Of a stretch of DNA of 64,000 nucleotides, positions 2,773-59,028 are shown piece after piece. The first letter of the stretch is position 1. Every line of letters begins with the position of its first letter. A program made the translations under genes and the position numbers. Under the pieces are notes generated by a model, which worked only from the letters and a program-made list of their open reading frames with translations, was not told the origin of the DNA and did no database searches. The stretch comes from Allacma fusca (lineage: Eukaryota > Arthropoda > Collembola > Symphypleona > Sminthuridae): assembly GCA_947179485.1 (NCBI GenBank), contig OX359247.1, positions 49,139,131-49,203,130 on the forward strand, written 5' to 3'.

Positions 2773-5700
2773 GTACATACTTTGGAAGAAACAATGGAAC
2801 GCTCGAGGATTTGGTTTTACCTCCAAGCAAACGGACTGGGATCTTCCCCTAAAACCTCATTACCACAAGGAATGTTTCGAGCCTATTTATGGTGAGTTTT
2901 TGTGATGCGTTACACAATTTTTTGATCAAGTTGTAGCTAGAATAACATTTTTTATGAACAACACGTTTGGATTTATTTGCGTAGGCTTCTATGAGATGAA
3001 GGGCAGCGGAGATATTCATAATCCGGATGAAGTGAATTGGTTTATCAAAAATGTCCGAAAGACAACTTTCAGAAAAGGCGTACATGTTGCTGTAGCTAAC
3101 GGGGTAAACTTATTTTCTATGTTCTTCATCAGATTTCTAGCTTGCTTTCAAATACGCGATAGCAGTTTATGGCAAATACGAGGCTATACTACTTCTGCTT
3201 TACAAAGATGTAGTTTTTATCATTGAGAAAGGTAAAAGATATAAGTAATTATAAGCTCTTGTCGACCTGCTATTGTCCTTTCTCCAACCGCTTGAGGCCT
3301 TTTAGAATTTTATTTATGTGTAGCATTACTGTATAGGTGGAATAAAATGCAAGATTTTAGAAGAAATTGCAAAATTTGGTTTGATTTTTACAGGGGGACA
3401 TATCTGAAGGGGATGAAGACAAGAAGGAATTACGATGCAAATACATGATGCTTGGCGAAGTTGTGATAGCGCTTTCTATAGTTCGTGACGGTAAGTATGA
3501 ATTTGAGTTTTGGCAGTAACTATGACTTGCTTATTCTTTAAGCTACTTAAGTTAGACTGTAACTATTTTCCGTGGATAAAATCAGTGATTTGAAGCAGTT
3601 TTTTGTTTTTCTTATGTTTGTTATGGATGAATAGGTGGTCATTTTGTCTTGAGAACGTACGACATGTTCACTCCATTTACTGTCGGGCTTATTTTCCTTC
3701 TGCATCAAATGTTTGATTCAATAACCATTCACAAACCGGAAACTTGTTTACCAGCAAGTTCGGAGCGTTATGTTATTTGCAAGTGGAGAAAAGTAAATCG
3801 GTTTACTCGAGAGGTTATCAACTACCTGATGGATTGTCAAAAGTTTTTCAAAAACACTCAGCGAATGTAAGAATACTATTCGGTAGTAATTTATAGAAAC
3901 TGTTAACACTACACATAAAAAATTGATGTTTTCCCGTCACTAATTCTGCCAAACATCCATTATGCTATTATCATCATAATTTGCAGGGTTCAAATATTTA
4001 ACTTAAATTATGTCTATAACCTGTCCGCATTGGTACATCCGTGGTTTTTATCGGCTTCAAAAAATATTTCAAGGAAAGGAGCTGTAGAATTCATTAGCTT
4101 TACTGCTTAATTGGAAAGCTAGGAGGGTTTTCATAAAATATTCAAAAGGGTAACTCCAGTTAAGTTTGTTATTCCCGCTAGGGCTAGGATCGTAATTATG
4201 TTTATGGTGAGGTTTTAGAACAATTAAGATTTTTAGAATTGAACCTAGCCTTGCTGAATTATAAATTAAGATAGTCATTTTGAATTTTTTAGTATTACGT
4301 TATCTTACTGGTGCAATTATAGTGCCAGAATGAATCTCAATATAAAGGTGCTTTTCACAAAGGTTTATTTCAATATGATTGCTGTGCACGCCATGTTTAA
4401 GTTATTCTGGAGGTATTGAATTATTTCGTAGATATAAAAACGCGGATCAACAAGTAGCAGATATCCAGGAACTAATACCGGTGAACAGGATTCGCAATAA
4501 CGAAAGGTTCATGTCGTTTATACTGGATGCAAACGAGTTGTAAGCTTTTAATATAATTGCCAGCGTATTTTTTATCTTACAAATGTATACTGTGACTGAA
4601 TGCTCAATTGCTGAAATGCTGATTAGATTACTGTGATGTCGAGAAAGATGTTAAGCTCTAGTTTGTAATCCTAGGAATGGAAGATGTCAGCTGGAAGAAA
4701 CTCGTAAAATAAATGACGAAATCAGAAGAAATGGAACTCAATCACTGATTCGACAGCACGTGTCAACAATAATCAGAAAAGCGACAACAATCTGGGGCAT
4801 TCCTAGAGGTTTTACTGTTGGGGCGAAGTACACTGAAGGAAGTTCTCCTGAAATCAGAGCTGCAAAGATGGTTGCTCCCTATCCTCCGGGTAAAATTTTA
4901 TGCTACAACGTCGTCAACATAAATGTTTCGCATTGTGACTGTGCTTTCTAGGTTCATATTATTTATTAATGGCTTCTTATATTCTTTGTTACAAATATTT
5001 AGACACATTTACTCGCATTGAGAGGGAGGGCGAGCAAGAGCTAAATTTCCAGACCATGGAAGACGATTTGCAAAATCCATCTGAGTGGCACGTATTTTTA
5101 GTTGGTAGAGATCGAGGATTTTTCTTGAGTAAGTTTAATCAGCTTTAATACTTTTGTGCTACTAGTGCATATAAAATAATCAATGTAGAAACTATTTGTA
5201 GTTGAATGAATTACACATACAACAAAGTTGACCACACTTTGCATTTTCTTGTAGGTTTGGGAGAAGATGAAGTTTATCGATTTTCTGGAGCAAAATGGGT
5301 TAAAACAATTGATAGATTTGAATTGGCTGCGAATACTTTAATCTACGCAGATGTTGTGGATGAAATTGCAATTTATGAGACCAGACAGGTAACCACAACT
5401 GGATTGCAAATCATGGATGCATTAGTGTTGGGGGGGAAAGATATCCGGAATCTTCCTCACGAGGAAAGGTACAAGAGTTTTTGAATAATTTGAGCCTTTG
5501 GTTCTGCGGCTTTTAGAGCTACACAAAGCGTGAAAATTTTTGGAAATAAACTTTTGTGGCCAATATAAATTCTCAACTCTGATTTTAGGTTAGAACTGTG
5601 CTTGAAATTTTCTCGTGCTATGGATCGACCCAACAGACAAGACATAGCAGCCGTCAGAGCAAAAACAGCGTATGAGTTAAACAAAATTGACGGGATTCTT

Positions 5701-12325: not shown

Positions 12326-12333
12326 TATAAAAG
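12326..12333 (+). promoter_or_regulatory. TATA box of the SIFamide gene
   Basis: TATAAAAG lies 128 bp before the first base of the start codon. Transcription would begin near 12356, leaving a 5' untranslated leader of about 100 nt that contains no upstream ATG. Confidence 0.7.
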
Positions 12334-12460: not shown

Positions 12461-13171
12461 ATGGCCAGATTCAACTTATTCCTAGTCGTTGTCGTAGTCG
12501 CAATGGGCTTGTTCATTGCTACTGAGCTGGCAGAGGGCGCTATGGATCCGTACAAGCAGCAACAGCCGCCATTCAATGGAGGGATCTTTGGCAAACGAAA
12601 CTCAGGTGATAATTAGTTGCACTAATAAAAATTATTAATTCATAATTTTAAACGGGATTTGTTGCACCTTGTGCCGGAACTAGTTGACATTTTTAGGGTA
12701 CTGTTGAGGTAGAACAGTTTACATGAAGTGTAAATACATTTTATTTAGTCGCTACTTCAGCTGTATCATAAACAAAATTAAAGTACAGCAGATAATTTCA
12801 TTGATTTCTTAGAATGGACGTAATTGCTGGAGTGTATTCAACTCTAGTATCAGTTTTCCGGACTTTTAATCCTACAAAAGCAATTTCGTACTTTCCGCCT
12901 TACATTAGTAGGAATAATATTCAAAACAAAAATCGTTACTGTGCAACACGGGAACAATAGCCGAGGAGAGACTAATGGAAATATTTTGTCAAACAATTTT
13001 CTATATATAATTTCTGTGGTTATCTGTTTGTGAAGTTCATGTGGCTAAACGAGTTGAAACCAAATTACAGGAGGGATTCTTGTTGATGGAGTAAAAGCTG
13101 TCCATTCTTGGAGGTCCGTATGTGATGTGGCCATTGAAACTTGCAGTTCTCTCTTTTTGGAATCCAGATGA
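12461..13171 (+). CDS. SIFa: SIFamide-type neuropeptide precursor (81 aa, 2 exons)
   Basis: SIFamides are arthropod neuropeptides, normally a C-terminally amidated RKPPFNGSIF released just after the signal peptide and acting through a GPCR. Exon 1 (12461-12605) encodes a hydrophobic signal peptide (MARFNLFLVVVVVAMGLF...), then MDPYKQQQPPFNGGIF, then GKR, the usual amidation glycine plus dibasic cleavage site, then NS as in known precursors. Exon 2 (13071-13171, phase 1 join AG|GA) supplies the family's two-cysteine tail, here SVCDVAIETCSSLF, matching the spacing C-x6-C of other precursors. Without splicing the frame stops 11 bases after the donor, so the intron is needed. Oddities: the core is QQPPFNGGIF-amide, so RK is QQ and Ser is Gly, and the N-terminus is longer than the usual 12 residues. 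Identity as the SIFamide gene is strong; the exact signal cleavage site is inferred. Confidence 0.9.
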
Positions 13172-17275: not shown

Positions 17276-19572
17276 ATGGGTATGTTGACACCTAAGCTGT
17301 TGGGAATCATTTCCATCGTCAGCCTACTTGGGACCATTATCATAAGGTGGGGCATTGTGGATCCCATTGTGAACGCTGAACTATCAAAGGTAAGACCCAG
17401 TTTCTTAATTAATTTATTCAAAATTGGATCCCTCAAATTTGTTTTTGGGAATGACGAATTTCTGGTAACAACTGAATATTCTTTAAAATAATAACTATGA
17501 AATGACTAATAACTATGAACAATTACTTTTGTTTGAAGAGACTACGTTTAGAGCCTGGAACCCAAATTTGGGATATATGGACAAACGTTCCGATCCCAAT
17601 TTACATGAAATTTACTTTCTTCAATGTAACAAATCCGGAAGAAGTAATACGAGGAGCTAAACCTATCGTCGAAGAAATTGGCCCTTACGTTTATGAGTTA
17701 GTAATTACTATTATTATTTATATAAGAATTTACATTATCTTTTAACGTATATATTATATTTTATATTTATATATAAAAATACAGTATATACAGTATATTT
17801 TAAATTTTCAGGGAAAAAAGGAGGAAGATAGTGTTGAACGTGAATGATGAAACTGTGAAGTATCGTCCCAAAACTTATTACTATTTCCGCCATGATATGT
17901 CTTACGGGACCGAAGATGACAACATTACCATGCTCAATGTCCCGTACGTGGTACGAATTCCCTTTTGGTGCATTTTTTTCAGGAACGTTTATTTTAAGAT
18001 CATTTGTTGACATACATAGTTACTAACATACAGAAATTGACTATTGACCAATAGGGAATAGCTAGAATAGCCTGGCAAGTCTCTAAGCAACCTTTTGTAC
18101 TTGAAATGCTTGATGATATGCTGAGTGATAAAGGGGAACAGCTTTTCCACACTCATTCAGTACGAGATTTCCTCTTTGATGGAGTTTCCATCGAAAATTT
18201 CATGGCTCTCCTGTCTTTTCCTGGTGCTGATGCTTACGACATCAAAATACCCAAGAGATTACAGGATGGAGATTTTGGATTCCTAGACGATGTAAGTTTC
18301 TTACTACGTTCTTATGTTTCAAGGTGACTGTCCCAATGTGTTAAGCCTGGACGATTAAATAAAGTAATTAAATGAACATAGAAAAATGGAACTGCCGATG
18401 AAGTTTGGGTAGTGAAAACAGGGAAGGATAACAACGACAACTTCGGTAAAACTGTGTCTTGGAACGGAAAGCCTTCGCTGTCATTTTGGAAGGACAGTAA
18501 GTGCAACAAAGTGGACGGGACGGATGGTACCATTTTTCCTCCCTTTGCGACCAAGCATGATATCCTAACTGCATTTTCTCCAGATCTTTGCCGGTTGGGG
18601 ATTAAAACTCATTCACCTTTCGGAAATTCCTCAAAAGTTTAAAACTGACTGAATTTTTCTAAACATTTGACTTCTTTTAGAGTGGTTAAAATGGTGTATA
18701 ACCAACCGAGCGAGATGATGGGAATCCCAACGCTGAGGTTCGGTTTTTCTCCAGACTTGTTTGGCAGTGTGAAGGAGTACCCGGAGAACCAATGCTATTG
18801 CCAAGACACTTGGGAGTACTGTCAGAAGGGTGGTGTCGTTTCTTTAGCACCATGTATCGGTGGTAATTATTCATCAATCCTGTCATATCACTAATGCTCC
18901 TAAAGGTCAATACATTTTGAGTGCCAGTTTGTTCAACTTCCAATTAAATTCTGCAGGAGCCCCAGTTTTTGCCTCCCGACCTCATTTCATGGGAGCCCAT
19001 AAAGATTTCATTGACGGAGTTGTAGGAATGACTCCTCATGGGGATTACTCCAGTTACGCTGATATTGAGCCTGTAAGGTAGTCTTAGATACATTAGAACT
19101 AACAAAATATTTTTATTGAATGAGATGATTTGTTAATAAGCATTGGGAACATTTCAGCACATCGGCTTACCTATAAAAGCAACTCTAAGAATACAAATTA
19201 ATGTAGAACTGGAGCCATACGAGTCGATGCCAAGTTTCGCTAGCGTCCCCCACGTCATGTTTCCGCTTTTGTGGCTAGAGGAGGTAACTACAATTATTAT
19301 TAAATTAAATTATTGTATTTCAATATATTTAAACTATTCTCATACCTTGATGCTCAGGCATAGAATTAATTGGATTGGGATTTAATTACGTTTAGACTGT
19401 GTCCGCCACTGAGGAATTGTTGGCTCCAATCAAGTTACTAGTGATTGGGTTGAATATCTTGGATGTGGTAGCAGAAATCTCTATAGCCCTGGGTTGCTTG
19501 GGGATAATCTTTGCTGTTGCATGGCACGTCATGTCGAACAACTGGCATATGAAATTATCTGAGAGTTCATGA
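17276..19572 (+). CDS. CD36-family scavenger receptor class B, first copy (485 aa, 9 exons)
   Basis: CD36/SCARB proteins are two-pass membrane receptors that bind lipids or lipoproteins at the cell surface or in lysosomes. Exons: 17276-17389, 17539-17696, 17812-17950, 18055-18291, 18382-18593, 18681-18859, 18957-19072, 19158-19283, 19396-19572; all phases close. The N-terminal membrane segment is about residues 7-29, and the C-terminal one about 455-473 with a short tail. Family blocks are WTNVPIPIYMKF, GPYVYEEKRRK, LNVPYV, VDGTDGTIFPPF, GAPVFASRPHF and YADIEP. Six ectodomain cysteines (KCN, DLCR, QCYC, EYCQ, APC) match the three disulfides of CD36. The ATG at 17276 directly precedes the first membrane helix, so the N-terminal cytosolic part is only a few residues, much shorter than in the second copy at 48.6-59.0 kb. 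The ligand cannot be deduced. Confidence 0.93.
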
Positions 19573-20867
19573 TGTTCATTTTGAAAGGCTTTTTGTAGCT
19601 TAACCTATTGTAGGCATAGATATAGACTTCCTGTATGAATTCCAGTTGCACAGCTACGGCTTCATATATCTTCTATTTTGGATTCGAAGTAATAATTATG
19701 TTTAGATTAATATATTTAAATATTCTTACTATCATTAATTTATAATATAACCGGTTGGGACAACTTTCAAGAATTAGTAGCCACTGTGTGCTCCAATTAA
19801 CTGCCGTAAGGTCTGTTTTAATTTATTGTACATTGCACCTCTTCAAGTAAATTCCTCTGGAATACATTTATAATTTATTATACATTATACAGTATAATAA
19901 CTATTATTGTTGCTCAAAATCTAATGAATTTTTAAAACACAGAATCATTTCCGAATATGAAATTGGCAGTTTCTGAGGAGTTTTGAACTTTGAAAGGTTA
20001 TCCTATTATTTATGCCACTCATTGTCAGAGAGATTTGAAGCATTATAACTGTGACTTTCTGTAGTTTTTCCCTTCATGGTTTTACTTTGTATATACATAA
20101 TGATTAACTCTATTATGAAACATGAATATGACATTCATGAAAATAAACTAGAGTCTTAGAAACTTTAAAACACAAAAAAGCTCTATCTTCGGGAAAATGA
20201 AATAATATCGAAATTCCGTAAAAGTTTGTTCATTTATGTATAGGTACTACTGTTTGTAAGAGTGTACTTGATAGGCGGTAAACACGTTATGGAGGTCGGT
20301 TGGGGTAAGTTAAAACAAGTGTCGTTTATTCAGGAGGGGGCGCATACTAAACGTAATCATACTGTCTCATGTCCAGAAATTTAATCTCGTGGTCGAAGAA
20401 AATACAAATAAGCCACTCTTATTGCAAATAATTATACCTCGACTTAAATTTGTCGTGGTTTATCATCACCTTTGCATATGGCAAATAGATAAAAAAACTA
20501 AGAGTTTATACTCCGAATGTAATGCCTTAAAAGTATCTATCTGCATAAAATACGCTAGCGTGTCCATGTGCATGGTTCACTCAAAATTCTGCCAAATTAT
20601 TCATACCAACGAATAATTCAAAATATGCTGAATTTGAATAAGAACTCGTCTTCGAATGGATTTGGTTGGACCCTATGCAAGAATTAGACCTGATATCCCA
20701 ATCATTTTTAAGTAATTGCACTGACGACACTGTTGATTGTCAATTGTGACTGCCTCCTCTTGAAACGTACCCTCATCCTTCATATCACCCCTATAGAGAG
20801 CTACAGTGAAATAAAATAATTTTGAACTTTATTGACTGTTAATATCTAACTAATCAATAATTGAGTC
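19573..20867. other. 3' flank of the first CD36-family gene and intergenic DNA
   Basis: About 1.3 kb of AT-rich sequence. A canonical AATAAA at 20142-20147 is the likeliest poly(A) signal of the CD36-family gene, though it is 570 bp after the stop. An open frame at 20389-20616 begins with GTG and looks like chance. Confidence 0.4.
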
Positions 20868-54600: not shown

Positions 54601-57600
54601 TCACAAATTATAATAAATTATAATTAATCGTTCTTATATTCATATAATAAGCTTGTGATTATAAGCATAAATCAATCTAACAAAATACCCACGCTGTGAC
54701 TGCTACCTTTTGCACTGATTACAAATTGAAATAATTGATTGGAAGCGAAAGCCAAAATAATTATTAATATTACAGTAATACACTATGATTATCATTGATT
54801 ACGCAAAGAGAAAAGCTATAACAAGGTTTGATCAAGCGTGTGTTCCATTTAAGGCCTTCATCACGATATCCATAGTGAAGCATGTCATTGGTGAAGAGGC
54901 AAAATGAACTACATACACTTTCGATAAAAAGCAGAATGATCTGTCTTCACTCGGATTCACTAAAAAATGGTCGTCCAGATACACCACATATTTTATTTTT
55001 CATGTCATAATCTCGCATAATAATACTCATTTTAATTTCGTGAAAATGTATTTAAGACATTTTCCTTTTTATCTAAAATGTATCTAGTTCATTATTTATT
55101 TCGAGACTATATCTATCTAACTCGACAGGGTTTAAAAATGTGATATCTAATACATACATATGAATGCACATGTGGCGTTAGTGCAGGTAACTATAATTCG
55201 TATGCATACAACATATCATGTTAAATATATAGATGATATAAATTATACGAATAAGCAGAATTTTGTATCCCGTGAAGGTTATGTAGGTACTTATTCATTA
55301 AATAATATTTTTGTATGAATTTCAATTTGATATTGGTTCACCTTGTCAGAACACTCGAGTTATTTTACTAATGCTACTATAATTGGTCCAGTATTTTTAC
55401 GCCGATTTCCCTCCGAATGGTACAAGAGTGGAACATGGGACAGCAGAAGATTGAAATTACCTAGTTAATTGCAGTGAAACAAAAACTTTAAGTAGAGGAT
55501 TATAGAATGTCACATATTCTGTAAGGATCCTACCATGCCCCAGATATTACTTATTGTGAAAAATAATCTTCTTTGAGTACTTCCATCAAGGCTATGTTCT
55601 TGTCTATTTTAGGAAGTGAGGCTGGAGCAAGGATCGGACACATGGAAAAAGTGGGTTAATGTTCCTATCCCTGTATTTATCAAATTCCGATTCTTCAACA
55701 TCACCAACTACGACCAGTTTGAGCAGGGAGTAAAGCCTCGTGTGGAAGAAGTTGGACCATATACTTACGAGTTAGTCTCAAAATCTTTTTGCTTGCTTTC
55801 AATCTTTCAATTTGAATGTACTCCAAGAAAAATCAATGAATGTTTTACTATTTTTAGAGAAAAAAGAACAAAGCAGATTTTAGCAATTGACAAGGAACAA
55901 GATACAATACGATACCGGCAGCATATTCACTATTATTTCCGGGAAGATCTTTCCGCTGGGCGGGAAAGTGACCGTGTGATTCTCGTCAACGTTCCATTTG
56001 TGGTAAGATATACTCCATTCCCTCAAATCTGAAACTTACGCTTAGAAATTAATGAAATGAGATGTAAAAGTATTTGGAATTTGATTTGAAAGGATATTTA
56101 TACATTCATCCTTGCTGAATTGTATTTGAAGGAATTGTGATGAACTGACAGCTGACATTATTTATTTTCCATGCGACTGATTGCAGTCAGTGGCAAAAAT
56201 CTCTAGCCAGAGGACAAACTTTCAACTTGCTCATACCTTCACGGATCGTACCTTGAGGGATCGAGGAGAGCGACTCTTCAACCGATACACAATCCGCCAG
56301 AATCTTTTCGATGGCTTCTCTGTTCAGACCTACGTCAATTTCCTATCCAATCCCATGATTCAGCTCGTTGGCACTGTCAACATGCCTATATCATTTAATG
56401 GGTCTCGTTTTGGGTTTTATAAAGGAGTAAGCTTCAAAATAAATATTGCATTACTTTTTTTTAAAAAAACTTTCAAATCCTAAGACTTGCTTGTTACAGT
56501 CCCTGATGATGACAGCCTGTAAGATGTTGAAAGCTTGCATATAATTTAGCTTAAGTTTAATACAGTTTACCAAGCGTATGTAAGTCAAAGATATGGAATG
56601 CATTATTTCAATTCCTGTAACTAATTGTATGAATCTCCATGTAAATCCCTTCAGAGAAACGGATCTGATGATGGAGAGATGGTGGTTTCATCAGGGACAA
56701 GAGTACCTGAGGACTTTGGAAAAATATTAAGCTGGGAGGGAAAGACGAGACTGGACTTCTGGGAGGGGAATTGTAATCTAATCAACGGAACGGATGGTTC
56801 CATTTTCAGACCTTTCATTAAGAAAACTGACATTCTTAGATTTTATGCACCGGAACTCTGCAGGTTTGATGGGACAACCCTTTCATTAAGGCTGAAATGC
56901 CATTCATACATTTTCACTTACATATGTAATAATTATGTAATTACTCACATGTATGTTAAGGAAATAGTTTTGAGACATAATATTTATAAACTATATGTTG
57001 TCACACAGGTCCCTCCTGCTCGTCTATGTGAAGGAGGTGACAGTGAAGGGAATCAGCGGCTATCGATTTCAGCTCCCACATCCGAAGTACATCTTTGAGA
57101 GCAAGGACTTTTGTTTTTGCACTCCGAAGTCTAAGAGCTGCTTGAAGCAGGGCGTCTTTGACTTGTCTCCCTGTCGTGATGGTAAATTAATTAATTAGTT
57201 GAGTCTTGAGTTTATTGTTTCGTAAGTCCGTGGGGATTCCGTGAAGCGTGGGAATTAAATCAGACTGTACATAAATTCTTGTAAATGAATGAATGAATAG
57301 TACCTGACGGCCTGAAGGGAGTTGTAAAATGAGAGTTCTGATTTCCTTTGACATAGGGGCTCCAATTTCCTTCTCTGCTCCACATTTCTTCCAGTCTTGG
57401 GAGCCGTACTTAAATGGCGTGGATGGCTTGAGACCTTCCGAGGAAAAACATGACACATTCGTTGATATCGAGCCGGTAAGTGACTATAAATTAATTTTTC
57501 AAGTGGTGACTAATTTAAATTGTTTCTCAAATGTGACTGTCGGAATTGACGGTTTGGGCTGAGTCGATGGGCTGCTTCATACGGACTCGCTTACTATGTT

Positions 57601-59028
57601 TTTCCTTCTCAATGTACATAATAATACTATACAGTCATTAAAATTGTCAGGACCAAACGGAACTATACATATTACGGACTGAACGGTTTTGAGAGCTAGT
57701 CAAAATATACATACATCACCAATCACACCACACATGATGTAAACTACATTACAATAATTCGATTCCTGAACGCTTTCTCTTTTCCTTCAAATTGACTTGA
57801 ACAATCGTAATTCAAAATCAACTCATTCCAACCACATGAGTTGGAATTATACATTAAATTTTACTCTTTTGCTACTTATGTGTGCTCTAGCCCGAGTAGT
57901 GTCATTCAAACATTTCCATATACTGTAGGCACAGCTCAGCTGAATTTTCATTATGATTAAAAGGATCAGGTGACCTAATTGAATTTGCTTGCACGAACTC
58001 CAACTCGACTCGCCAATATTCAAACAATAAGTCTTGGGTTTTTTTTTCAAATTCCTTTTTAGAAACATGAGTCACATATAAGTTCTAGTCAAGTTGGAAC
58101 TATGCATTTCAACAGAGTCCTGTAGACGCTGTGGTCCCCCCTCAGTGTATTTGACAAAGTTGGAATAGATATGTGAGGTTGCAGGAACTTGATGTGACGG
58201 AAACGTGCGTTATTCCATGAAACAGAGAAAATGAAACTGAGACCAGAGTCGCGTGAACATGGCATTAAAACTTAAGGATTGGACTCTGCTTTCAAATTAA
58301 AGGAAACACGCACGCGTTCCAATCTCTCAATTTCTGAGAGTATTGCTCCAAAGATGCTGATTTCAATAAGTTGATTTAAAAAAGTTTTTTTTTTTTTGGG
58401 GGGGAATTTACAGACAACGGGTTTACTTCTACGTGCCATAAAGAGAGTTCAGTTCAATGTGGAAGTGGAGCCTAACCCAAGTATGCTAACTTTTCGCCGA
58501 GTGCCCAAAGTACTCCTACCATTCATGTGGGCTGAAGAGGTGATTAGTCATTTGGTTCATTACAGATTTCCACAAAAGAATGATAATACATTCTTAAATC
58601 CTATACTCGATAAATTAAATGTTAATACTTCCGACAATAAAATTGATTGTAAAATGTATCTAACTCAAACTTGCTCTCCACAGACTGCAGAGATTCCTGA
58701 CGATCTGGCAGAAGAGATCAAGGGAAAACTGTACGTGCCTCAGCAAATGGCGAATAAAACGATCATTGGAGGACTTATGGCTAGTACAATTTTGTTGGTA
58801 GTTGGAATTCTGGGATGCATTTATGTCCATTGTGAGAAAAGACAGGATAACTCTCTCGTTGATTCAGTCGACAGGGAAAGTCAAGCTTCAAGCTCAGGGA
58901 TTCACAGCATCATGACCTCTGCAAGCGGACCTCCGAGTGTGGTCAGCCAAGGCACAAATACAGATCAGAGTGATAAGGAGACAATGACTGATCAGCTCTT
59001 TAAGAGTGTTCCTCCTAAAGAGCCGTAA
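48631..59028 (+). CDS. CD36-family scavenger receptor class B, second copy (573 aa, 9 exons)
   Basis: Exons: 48631-48837, 55613-55770, 55858-56002, 56187-56426, 56655-56863, 57009-57181, 57357-57475, 58414-58539, 58684-59028; all phases close and match the first copy at 17.3 kb. Exon 2 (158 bp) and exon 8 (126 bp) are even equal in length. The N-terminal cytosolic part is long and charged (about 36 residues), then membrane helix 1 at about 37-59. Ectodomain blocks are WVNVPIPVFIKF, GPYTYEEKRTK, LVNVPFV, LINGTDGSIFRPF, GAPISFSAPHFF and FVDIEP. Six cysteines (GNC, ELCR, DFCFC, KSC, SPC) match the CD36 disulfides. Helix 2 is at about 485-508, followed by a Ser/Thr/Asp-rich cytosolic tail of about 65 residues, much longer than in the first copy. 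Exon 1 could instead end at 48828 (CAG|GTTTAC), also in phase; GTGAGT at 48838 is the better donor. The 6.8 kb first intron contrasts with compact later introns. Confidence 0.92.
48838..55612 (+). other. First intron of the second CD36-family gene
   Basis: 6.8 kb, GTGAGT to TCTATTTTAG. I see no nested gene that I can support. A minus-strand frame at 51168-50914 has an ATG and 84 protein-like codons but no recognisable family. A half-copy of the 24.1 kb hairpin arm lies at about 54891. Confidence 0.55.

Follow-up and report, generated by a model that had tools for sequence, protein, structure and literature searches.

Diverged SIFamide paralogs predicted to encode a GGIF-amide peptide in the springtail Allacma fusca

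The gene described here is very probably one of two diverged SIFamide paralogs of a springtail, Allacma fusca, that also carries two canonical SIFamide genes, with a peptide that appears to be selectively kept and to act as a putative second signal. The gene (GGIF1) lies in a 64,000-base stretch of DNA, the window, corresponding to C10:49139131-49203130; the one genome searched was that of this species (392,743,791 bases, 91 contigs). The other diverged paralog is named GGIF2, and the canonical genes SIFa and SIFb.

An earlier note, made from the window alone, had proposed a gene of the SIFamide type whose peptide is unusual, and this proposal is borne out both by the architecture of the gene and by its homology to SIFa and SIFb. 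Joining of exon 1 (translated as MARFNLFLVVVVVAMGLFIATELAEGAMDPYKQQQPPFNGGIFGKRNS) to exon 2 (GGILVDGVKAVHSWRSVCDVAIETCSSLFLESR and then the stop codon) results in an 81-residue precursor in which a signal peptide is followed by AMDPYKQQQPPFNGGIF, then GKR, then a tail with C-x6-C (Table 1). The landmarks that the note had listed (signal peptide, PPFNG, GKR and C-x6-C in a second exon) are present as described, and the second exon is backed by three sister genes. The signal peptide was recognised by hydropathy, and a single peptide copy follows it directly, with the PPFNG core, the amidation Gly and the dibasic KR. SIFamide precursors are secreted and cleaved at KR, the amide being derived from Gly; the -3/-1 rule is the basis for placing signal cleavage of GGIF1 after AEG. 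Candidates for the amidated peptides are AMDPYKQQQPPFNGGIF-amide and AVDPYGKQQPPFNGGIF-amide, besides forms shorter than these. PPFNG occurs only once in the six-frame translation of the window, PPFNGGIFGKR being coded at 12566-12598, and a degenerate DNA pattern for PPFNGxIFGKR gave one match in the window vs none in 100 dinucleotide shuffles.

The 12 kb downstream of exon 1 contain 656 AG dinucleotides, 19 of which would open a tail with C-x6-C; within this set of 19, C-[DE]-[VIL]-x4-C tails were obtained only from four in-frame acceptors of exon 2, with a pattern that was composed with this exon in view. Comparison of exon 2 with the fly SIFamide tail gave a score of 41.0, a value reached in 3 of 20,000 shuffles and tied by an unrelated frame at 20559, so that the choice of exon 2 rests on the sister genes. 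The exon was accepted because GGIF2 and both canonical genes are likewise joined in phase 1 at this place, and each carries a C-x6-C tail homologous to that of GGIF1. The donor is CAG/GTGATA at 12606 and the acceptor TTACAG, with its last base at 13070; since the frame would also be preserved from three further AG dinucleotides within exon 2, after which the exon would begin at 13074, 13092 or 13098, the exact acceptor is a predicted one. The TATA sequence TATAAAAG occurs six times on the plus strand of the window, and TATAAA is also found upstream of GGIF2, SIFa and SIFb. Judged by its sequence, GGIF1 is a real SIFamide-type gene.

Table 1. Coordinates of the GGIF1 features in the window (positions of the window) and of the SIFamide-receptor-type genes in the genome.
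Feature	Position	Strand	Remark
TATA box TATAAAAG, with an initiator-like TCATTC some 30 bases further downstream	12326..12333	+	consensus match only
Coding exon 1, ATG to phase-1 donor	12461..12605	+	homologous exon in GGIF2, SIFa and SIFb
Signal peptide MARFNLFLVVVVVAMGLFIATELAEG	12461..12538	+	hydropathy up to 3.15; predicted cleavage after AEG
Predicted mature peptide AMDPYKQQQPPFNGGIF-amide	12539..12589	+	QQPPFNGGIF kept in GGIF2
GKR, amidation and dibasic cleavage site	12590..12598	+	the same across the four genes
Intron, 465 bases, GT-AG, phase 1	12606..13070	+	place and phase shared with GGIF2, SIFa and SIFb
Coding exon 2, C-terminal tail and TGA stop	13071..13171	+	
C-x6-C element CDVAIETC, as in the tails of SIFamide precursors	13121..13144	+	
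Receptors R1-R3 (cluster)	C1:18.33-18.42 Mb		
Receptor R4	C1:30.98-31.00 Mb		
Receptor R7	C10:25.15 Mb		
Receptor R8	C5:2.00-2.03 Mb		one extra intron

No Pfam family matched the GGIF1 precursor, a PDB search with it returned only a chance match (E 1.2), and a scan of the genome_contigs and viral_contigs sets with the SIFamide pattern produced no match, which was to be expected of an animal gene. Within the window, neither Rfam, at its gathering threshold, nor ARAGORN detected anything. Elsewhere in the window, exons of two CD36-family genes were observed on the plus strand (18055-18639 and 55613-59028), one of the genes downstream of GGIF1, and an exon at 5206-5481 resembles cap-specific mRNA methyltransferase 1 (PDB 8p4e, E 2.2e-06). 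The CpG observed/expected ratio of the whole window was 0.72, and TpG and CpA were raised, a pattern suggestive of DNA methylation in the germline.

A search of the genome with YKQQQPPFNGGIFGKRNS revealed two matches, GGIF1 itself and C10:29675659-29675712 on the minus strand (GGIF2), the latter 89% identical to the GGIF1 query over 18 residues and located 19.5 Mb from GGIF1 on the same chromosome. The search with AYRKPPFNGSIFGKRNS gave four matches at E up to 10, namely the two GGIF exons and two canonical SIFamide exons on C9 (from 27956430 and 8602119), each 94% identical to the query; the peptide of both canonical genes is AYRKPPFNGSIF. The GGIF2 precursor reads ...AEGAVDPYGKQQPPFNGGIFGKRNS-GGIRFDAIKIENSWRSVCRDAMETCASVFTESS and that of SIFa ...AEAASGAYRKPPFNGSIFGKRSS-DVVAVGDGMKGMSSLGSLCEIAMETCSSLYLESR, SIFb being nearly identical. 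Common to all four genes are a phase-1 intron after GKR-[NS]S (240, 811 and 917 bases in the three besides GGIF1) and the C-x6-C tail, and in each of them a TATA sequence lies upstream. Protein identity to GGIF1 was 67% for GGIF2 and 53 and 52% for the canonical genes which, together with the shared intron phase, establishes their homology. The earlier note had anticipated that a canonical gene elsewhere would recast the window gene as a paralog, and the two genes on C9 do so: in place of the canonical RKPPFNGSIF-amide, GGIF1 encodes QQPPFNGGIF preceded by a two-residue insertion, and on these grounds it is a paralog and not the canonical SIFamide.

These canonical genes also bear on the suggestion that the changes in the peptide imply co-change of the SIFamide of the species and its receptor, with the window gene as the sole SIFamide and a receptor changed to match. 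The peptide does differ from the family core at several positions, but the assembly holds two canonical genes with intact frames and splice sites, which differ from each other by a pN of 0.050 vs a pS of 0.409. Since canonical SIFamide persists in the genome, receptor co-change is not required; the suggestion was dropped once both C9 exons had been found with AYRKPPFNGSIFGKRNS, and we now regard it as scarcely tenable, since it would require both C9 genes to be foreign or dead. The note's alternative of altered signalling may still apply in the form of a second peptide, in view of GGIF2, the conserved QQPPFNGGIFGKR and the multiplied receptor family described below.

Using blastn at E 1e-5, we compared the window with the surroundings (30 kb each) of GGIF2, SIFa and SIFb, and these with one another. 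The GGIF1 and GGIF2 loci gave a single match of 106 bp at 80%, the SIFa and SIFb loci matched in four pieces within about 2 kb (69-85%), and the four GGIF-SIF locus comparisons gave no DNA match at this threshold. Alleles, unpurged haplotypes or a haplotype artefact were discarded for the GGIF pair on the basis of that single short match and a pS of 0.633. Five matches were obtained with the SIFa tail: the four genes and C9:28095645-28095716, an inverted copy, 140 kb off, in which exon 2 of SIFa recurs along with its 3' flank at 97.4% over 533 bp; the 2.2 kb retrieved there contained no exon 1. This copy reads as a recent partial duplication. Because the canonical tail as a query recovered GGIF2 only at E 3.27, a further, more diverged paralog may have been missed. 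C10 is probably chromosome 3, and C9 is probably the sex chromosome X2, so that both canonical genes probably lie on X2 in a species whose group is described as having paternal genome elimination (PMC10427803).

In comparison with the canonical genes of the same genome, and with arthropod SIFamides in general, GGIF1 shows QQ for RK, two extra residues and GIF for SIF, whereas the signal peptide, the single peptide copy directly after it, PPFNG, GKR and the C-x6-C tail are shared. The replacements of RK and Ser pointed out in the earlier note hold, as does the N-terminal extension in the form of a two-residue insertion. Lys is retained upstream of the core in both GGIF genes (YKQQQ and YGKQQ), so the N-terminus is still partly charged.

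Over 81 codons, the GGIF pair showed a pN of 0.195 (0.184 in the signal and 0.252 in the faster-changing tail); with 67% protein identity and a pS of 0.63, the two genes are by these measures old copies. Within the 13 codons of QQPPFNGGIFGKR, 8.0 synonymous changes over 8.9 sites were counted vs 0 nonsynonymous changes over 30.1 sites, and the six codons directly upstream accumulated 4.7 nonsynonymous changes. Fisher tests gave 1.5e-7 for synonymous vs nonsynonymous changes in QQPPFNGGIFGKR (rounded site counts) and 7.6e-4 for nonsynonymous changes in the core vs the rest (rounded counts), for a segment that was picked after the alignment had been seen, although it corresponds to the end of the peptide and the cleavage site as predicted. 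The GGIF peptide end is thus shown to carry a pattern of purifying selection, having stayed unchanged through near-saturation of silent sites. Changes at positions otherwise conserved might point to a decaying pseudogene, but frame, splice sites and cleavage site are intact and QQPPFNGGIFGKR lacks any nonsynonymous change with respect to GGIF2, which makes decay most improbable. Given its conservation despite the old divergence of the pair, GGIF-amide looks like the paralog's own, selectively kept peptide, and because the peptide is so well kept between both copies the gene probably provides a functioning second signal rather than being in decay.

Paralogs of this kind have precedents. The C-x6-C element is reported as a feature of both SIFamide and IMFamide precursors, and lepidopteran IMFamide (NYKNAPMNGIMFamide) resembles GGIF1 in being encoded by a paralog beside canonical SIFamide, with a C-x6-C tail and alterations at the RK site and the C-terminus (PMC4926255). 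It differs in its residues and its lineage, as GGIF1 ends in GIF and not in IMF-amide and belongs to a springtail and not to Lepidoptera. SMYamide, described from cockroaches, termites, locusts and mantises, is likewise the product of a second SIFamide-like gene with an altered C-terminus (PMC4237046, PMC11874938), and the GGIF genes might be its springtail orthologs, derived from the same ancient duplication and acting on SIFaR-2. An old second receptor clade, sister to SIFaR, has been reported in arthropods (PMC10926455), and the springtail receptors too split into two identity groups. However, SMYamide ends in [SA]MY-amide and the GGIF genes are predicted to end in GIF, a separation drawn from the peptide ending, and we consider orthology with SMYamide improbable. 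Changes at the conserved C-terminus are also described for a dipluran SIFamide (NNVRKLPFNGSIYa) and for three SIYamide copies of an embiopteran, both of which differ from GGIF1 in keeping Ser and in being presented as the SIFamide of the species. According to Derst et al. 2016, '2-3 SIFa precursors' occur in at least a few of 24 species, nine springtails included (PMC4770511). The SIFamide paralogs IMFamide and SMYamide and multiple SIFa precursors in wingless hexapods were thus already known. The GGIF form (PPFNGGIF, GGIFamide) was not found as a neuropeptide among the papers listed in literature searches, although supplements such as Additional file 1 of PMC4770511 may already contain it; among the literature matches listed, FNGGIF and GIFamide-like strings came from other contexts (vaccine design; NGGIFA in soup text).

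The earlier note had also called for the SIFamide receptor to be sought in the same genome, and at least six candidate genes were found. An approximate query for TM1-TM4 of the fly SIFamide receptor gave at least 149 matches (150 of 243 candidates scored), from which we took up eight loci, each showing one or more exon matches of 54-78%. Two of these were set aside as other families: R5 (C1:27.9 Mb), allatotropin-receptor-like, and R6 (C10:62.19 Mb), with an ERY site lacking an exon break there, assignments that we presume from sequence motifs. A locus at C8:20.44 Mb was discarded as another GPCR. The at least six SIFamide-receptor-type genes (R1-R4, R7 and R8) each carry TM1-TM7 in open frames, and their exons are split ahead of TM3 and again within the DRF site (DKF in R7); the junctions inspected were GT-AG. 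The function of R2 is less sure, since KPILY replaces in TM7 the NPxLY of the others. The first coding exon of R4 is present twice, as identical 193-residue frames 7.7 kb apart (C1:30976431-30984716), through either tandem duplication or an assembly artefact. SIFamide-type receptors are reported to number two in diverse insects and more in some hemipterans (PMC10926455).

Identities were 63-78% among R1-R4, 58% between R7 and R8, and 47-56% between these groups. The top solved relative was NPFF receptor 2 for R8 (E 1.4e-60, 208.6 bits), R7 (4.3e-57, 197.1) and R4 (2.1e-54, 188.3), and NPY receptor 2 for R3, R1 and R2, where NPFF receptor 2 reached about 179, 174 and 172 bits. The vertebrate relatives of SIFaR are described as NPFF/GnIH-type receptors (GnIH receptor: PMC7047498), and with this kinship the ranking makes R7 and R8 look the most conserved, the R1-R3 cluster the most derived and R4 intermediate. 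Against this picture, the approximate fly query was about equally close to all six receptors (63-68%). Receptor trees were weakly resolved: a frame was obtained from three of six candidate outgroup loci, and in a tree with one very distant outgroup, the only supported fork was R7 with R8 (87/91, below the starred level of the tool), and a clade of R1-R4 had no support.

With at least six SIFamide-receptor-type genes in the same genome, a second ligand-receptor channel is plausible. The GGIF1 precursor would enter the secretory pathway and be cut after AEG and after KR, and the Gly of GKR would become the amide, yielding AMDPYKQQQPPFNGGIF-amide. This peptide may then act, as a candidate pairing, on one or more SIFamide-receptor-type GPCRs as a second peptide with a potency of its own, a release site of its own or both, in line with what has been put forward for SMYamide and IMFamide. 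Alternatively, GGIF-amide could be redundant with SIFamide, the product of extra copies acting on the same receptors, with Ser/Gly and the N-terminus neutral. Retention of PPFNG and IF-amide agrees with redundancy, the doubling of the canonical gene also fits a dosage story, and SIFamides are described as mostly of at least 12 residues, with substitutions in Polyneoptera mainly at the first two positions (PMC7179676). Nevertheless, QQ and the GGIF ending are fixed across two copies whose synonymous sites are close to saturation, a sign that these residues are specifically required, and Veenstra is on record as arguing that offshoots with altered C-termini persist to make a different peptide (PMC4237046). 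Redundancy is in our judgment possible but rather unlikely.

With ligand genes of two kinds, four in all and each intact, and at least six receptor-type genes, this genome offers a natural experiment on the divergence of peptide and receptor duplicates and on which SIFamide residues carry specificity. As a tentative extension, the second channel might even be insulated, with both GGIF genes paired with the derived R1-R3 (R4 being intermediate) and canonical SIFamide from C9 with the NPFF-receptor-like R7 and R8. If true, this would be a natural case of a duplicated ligand and a duplicated receptor diverging together.
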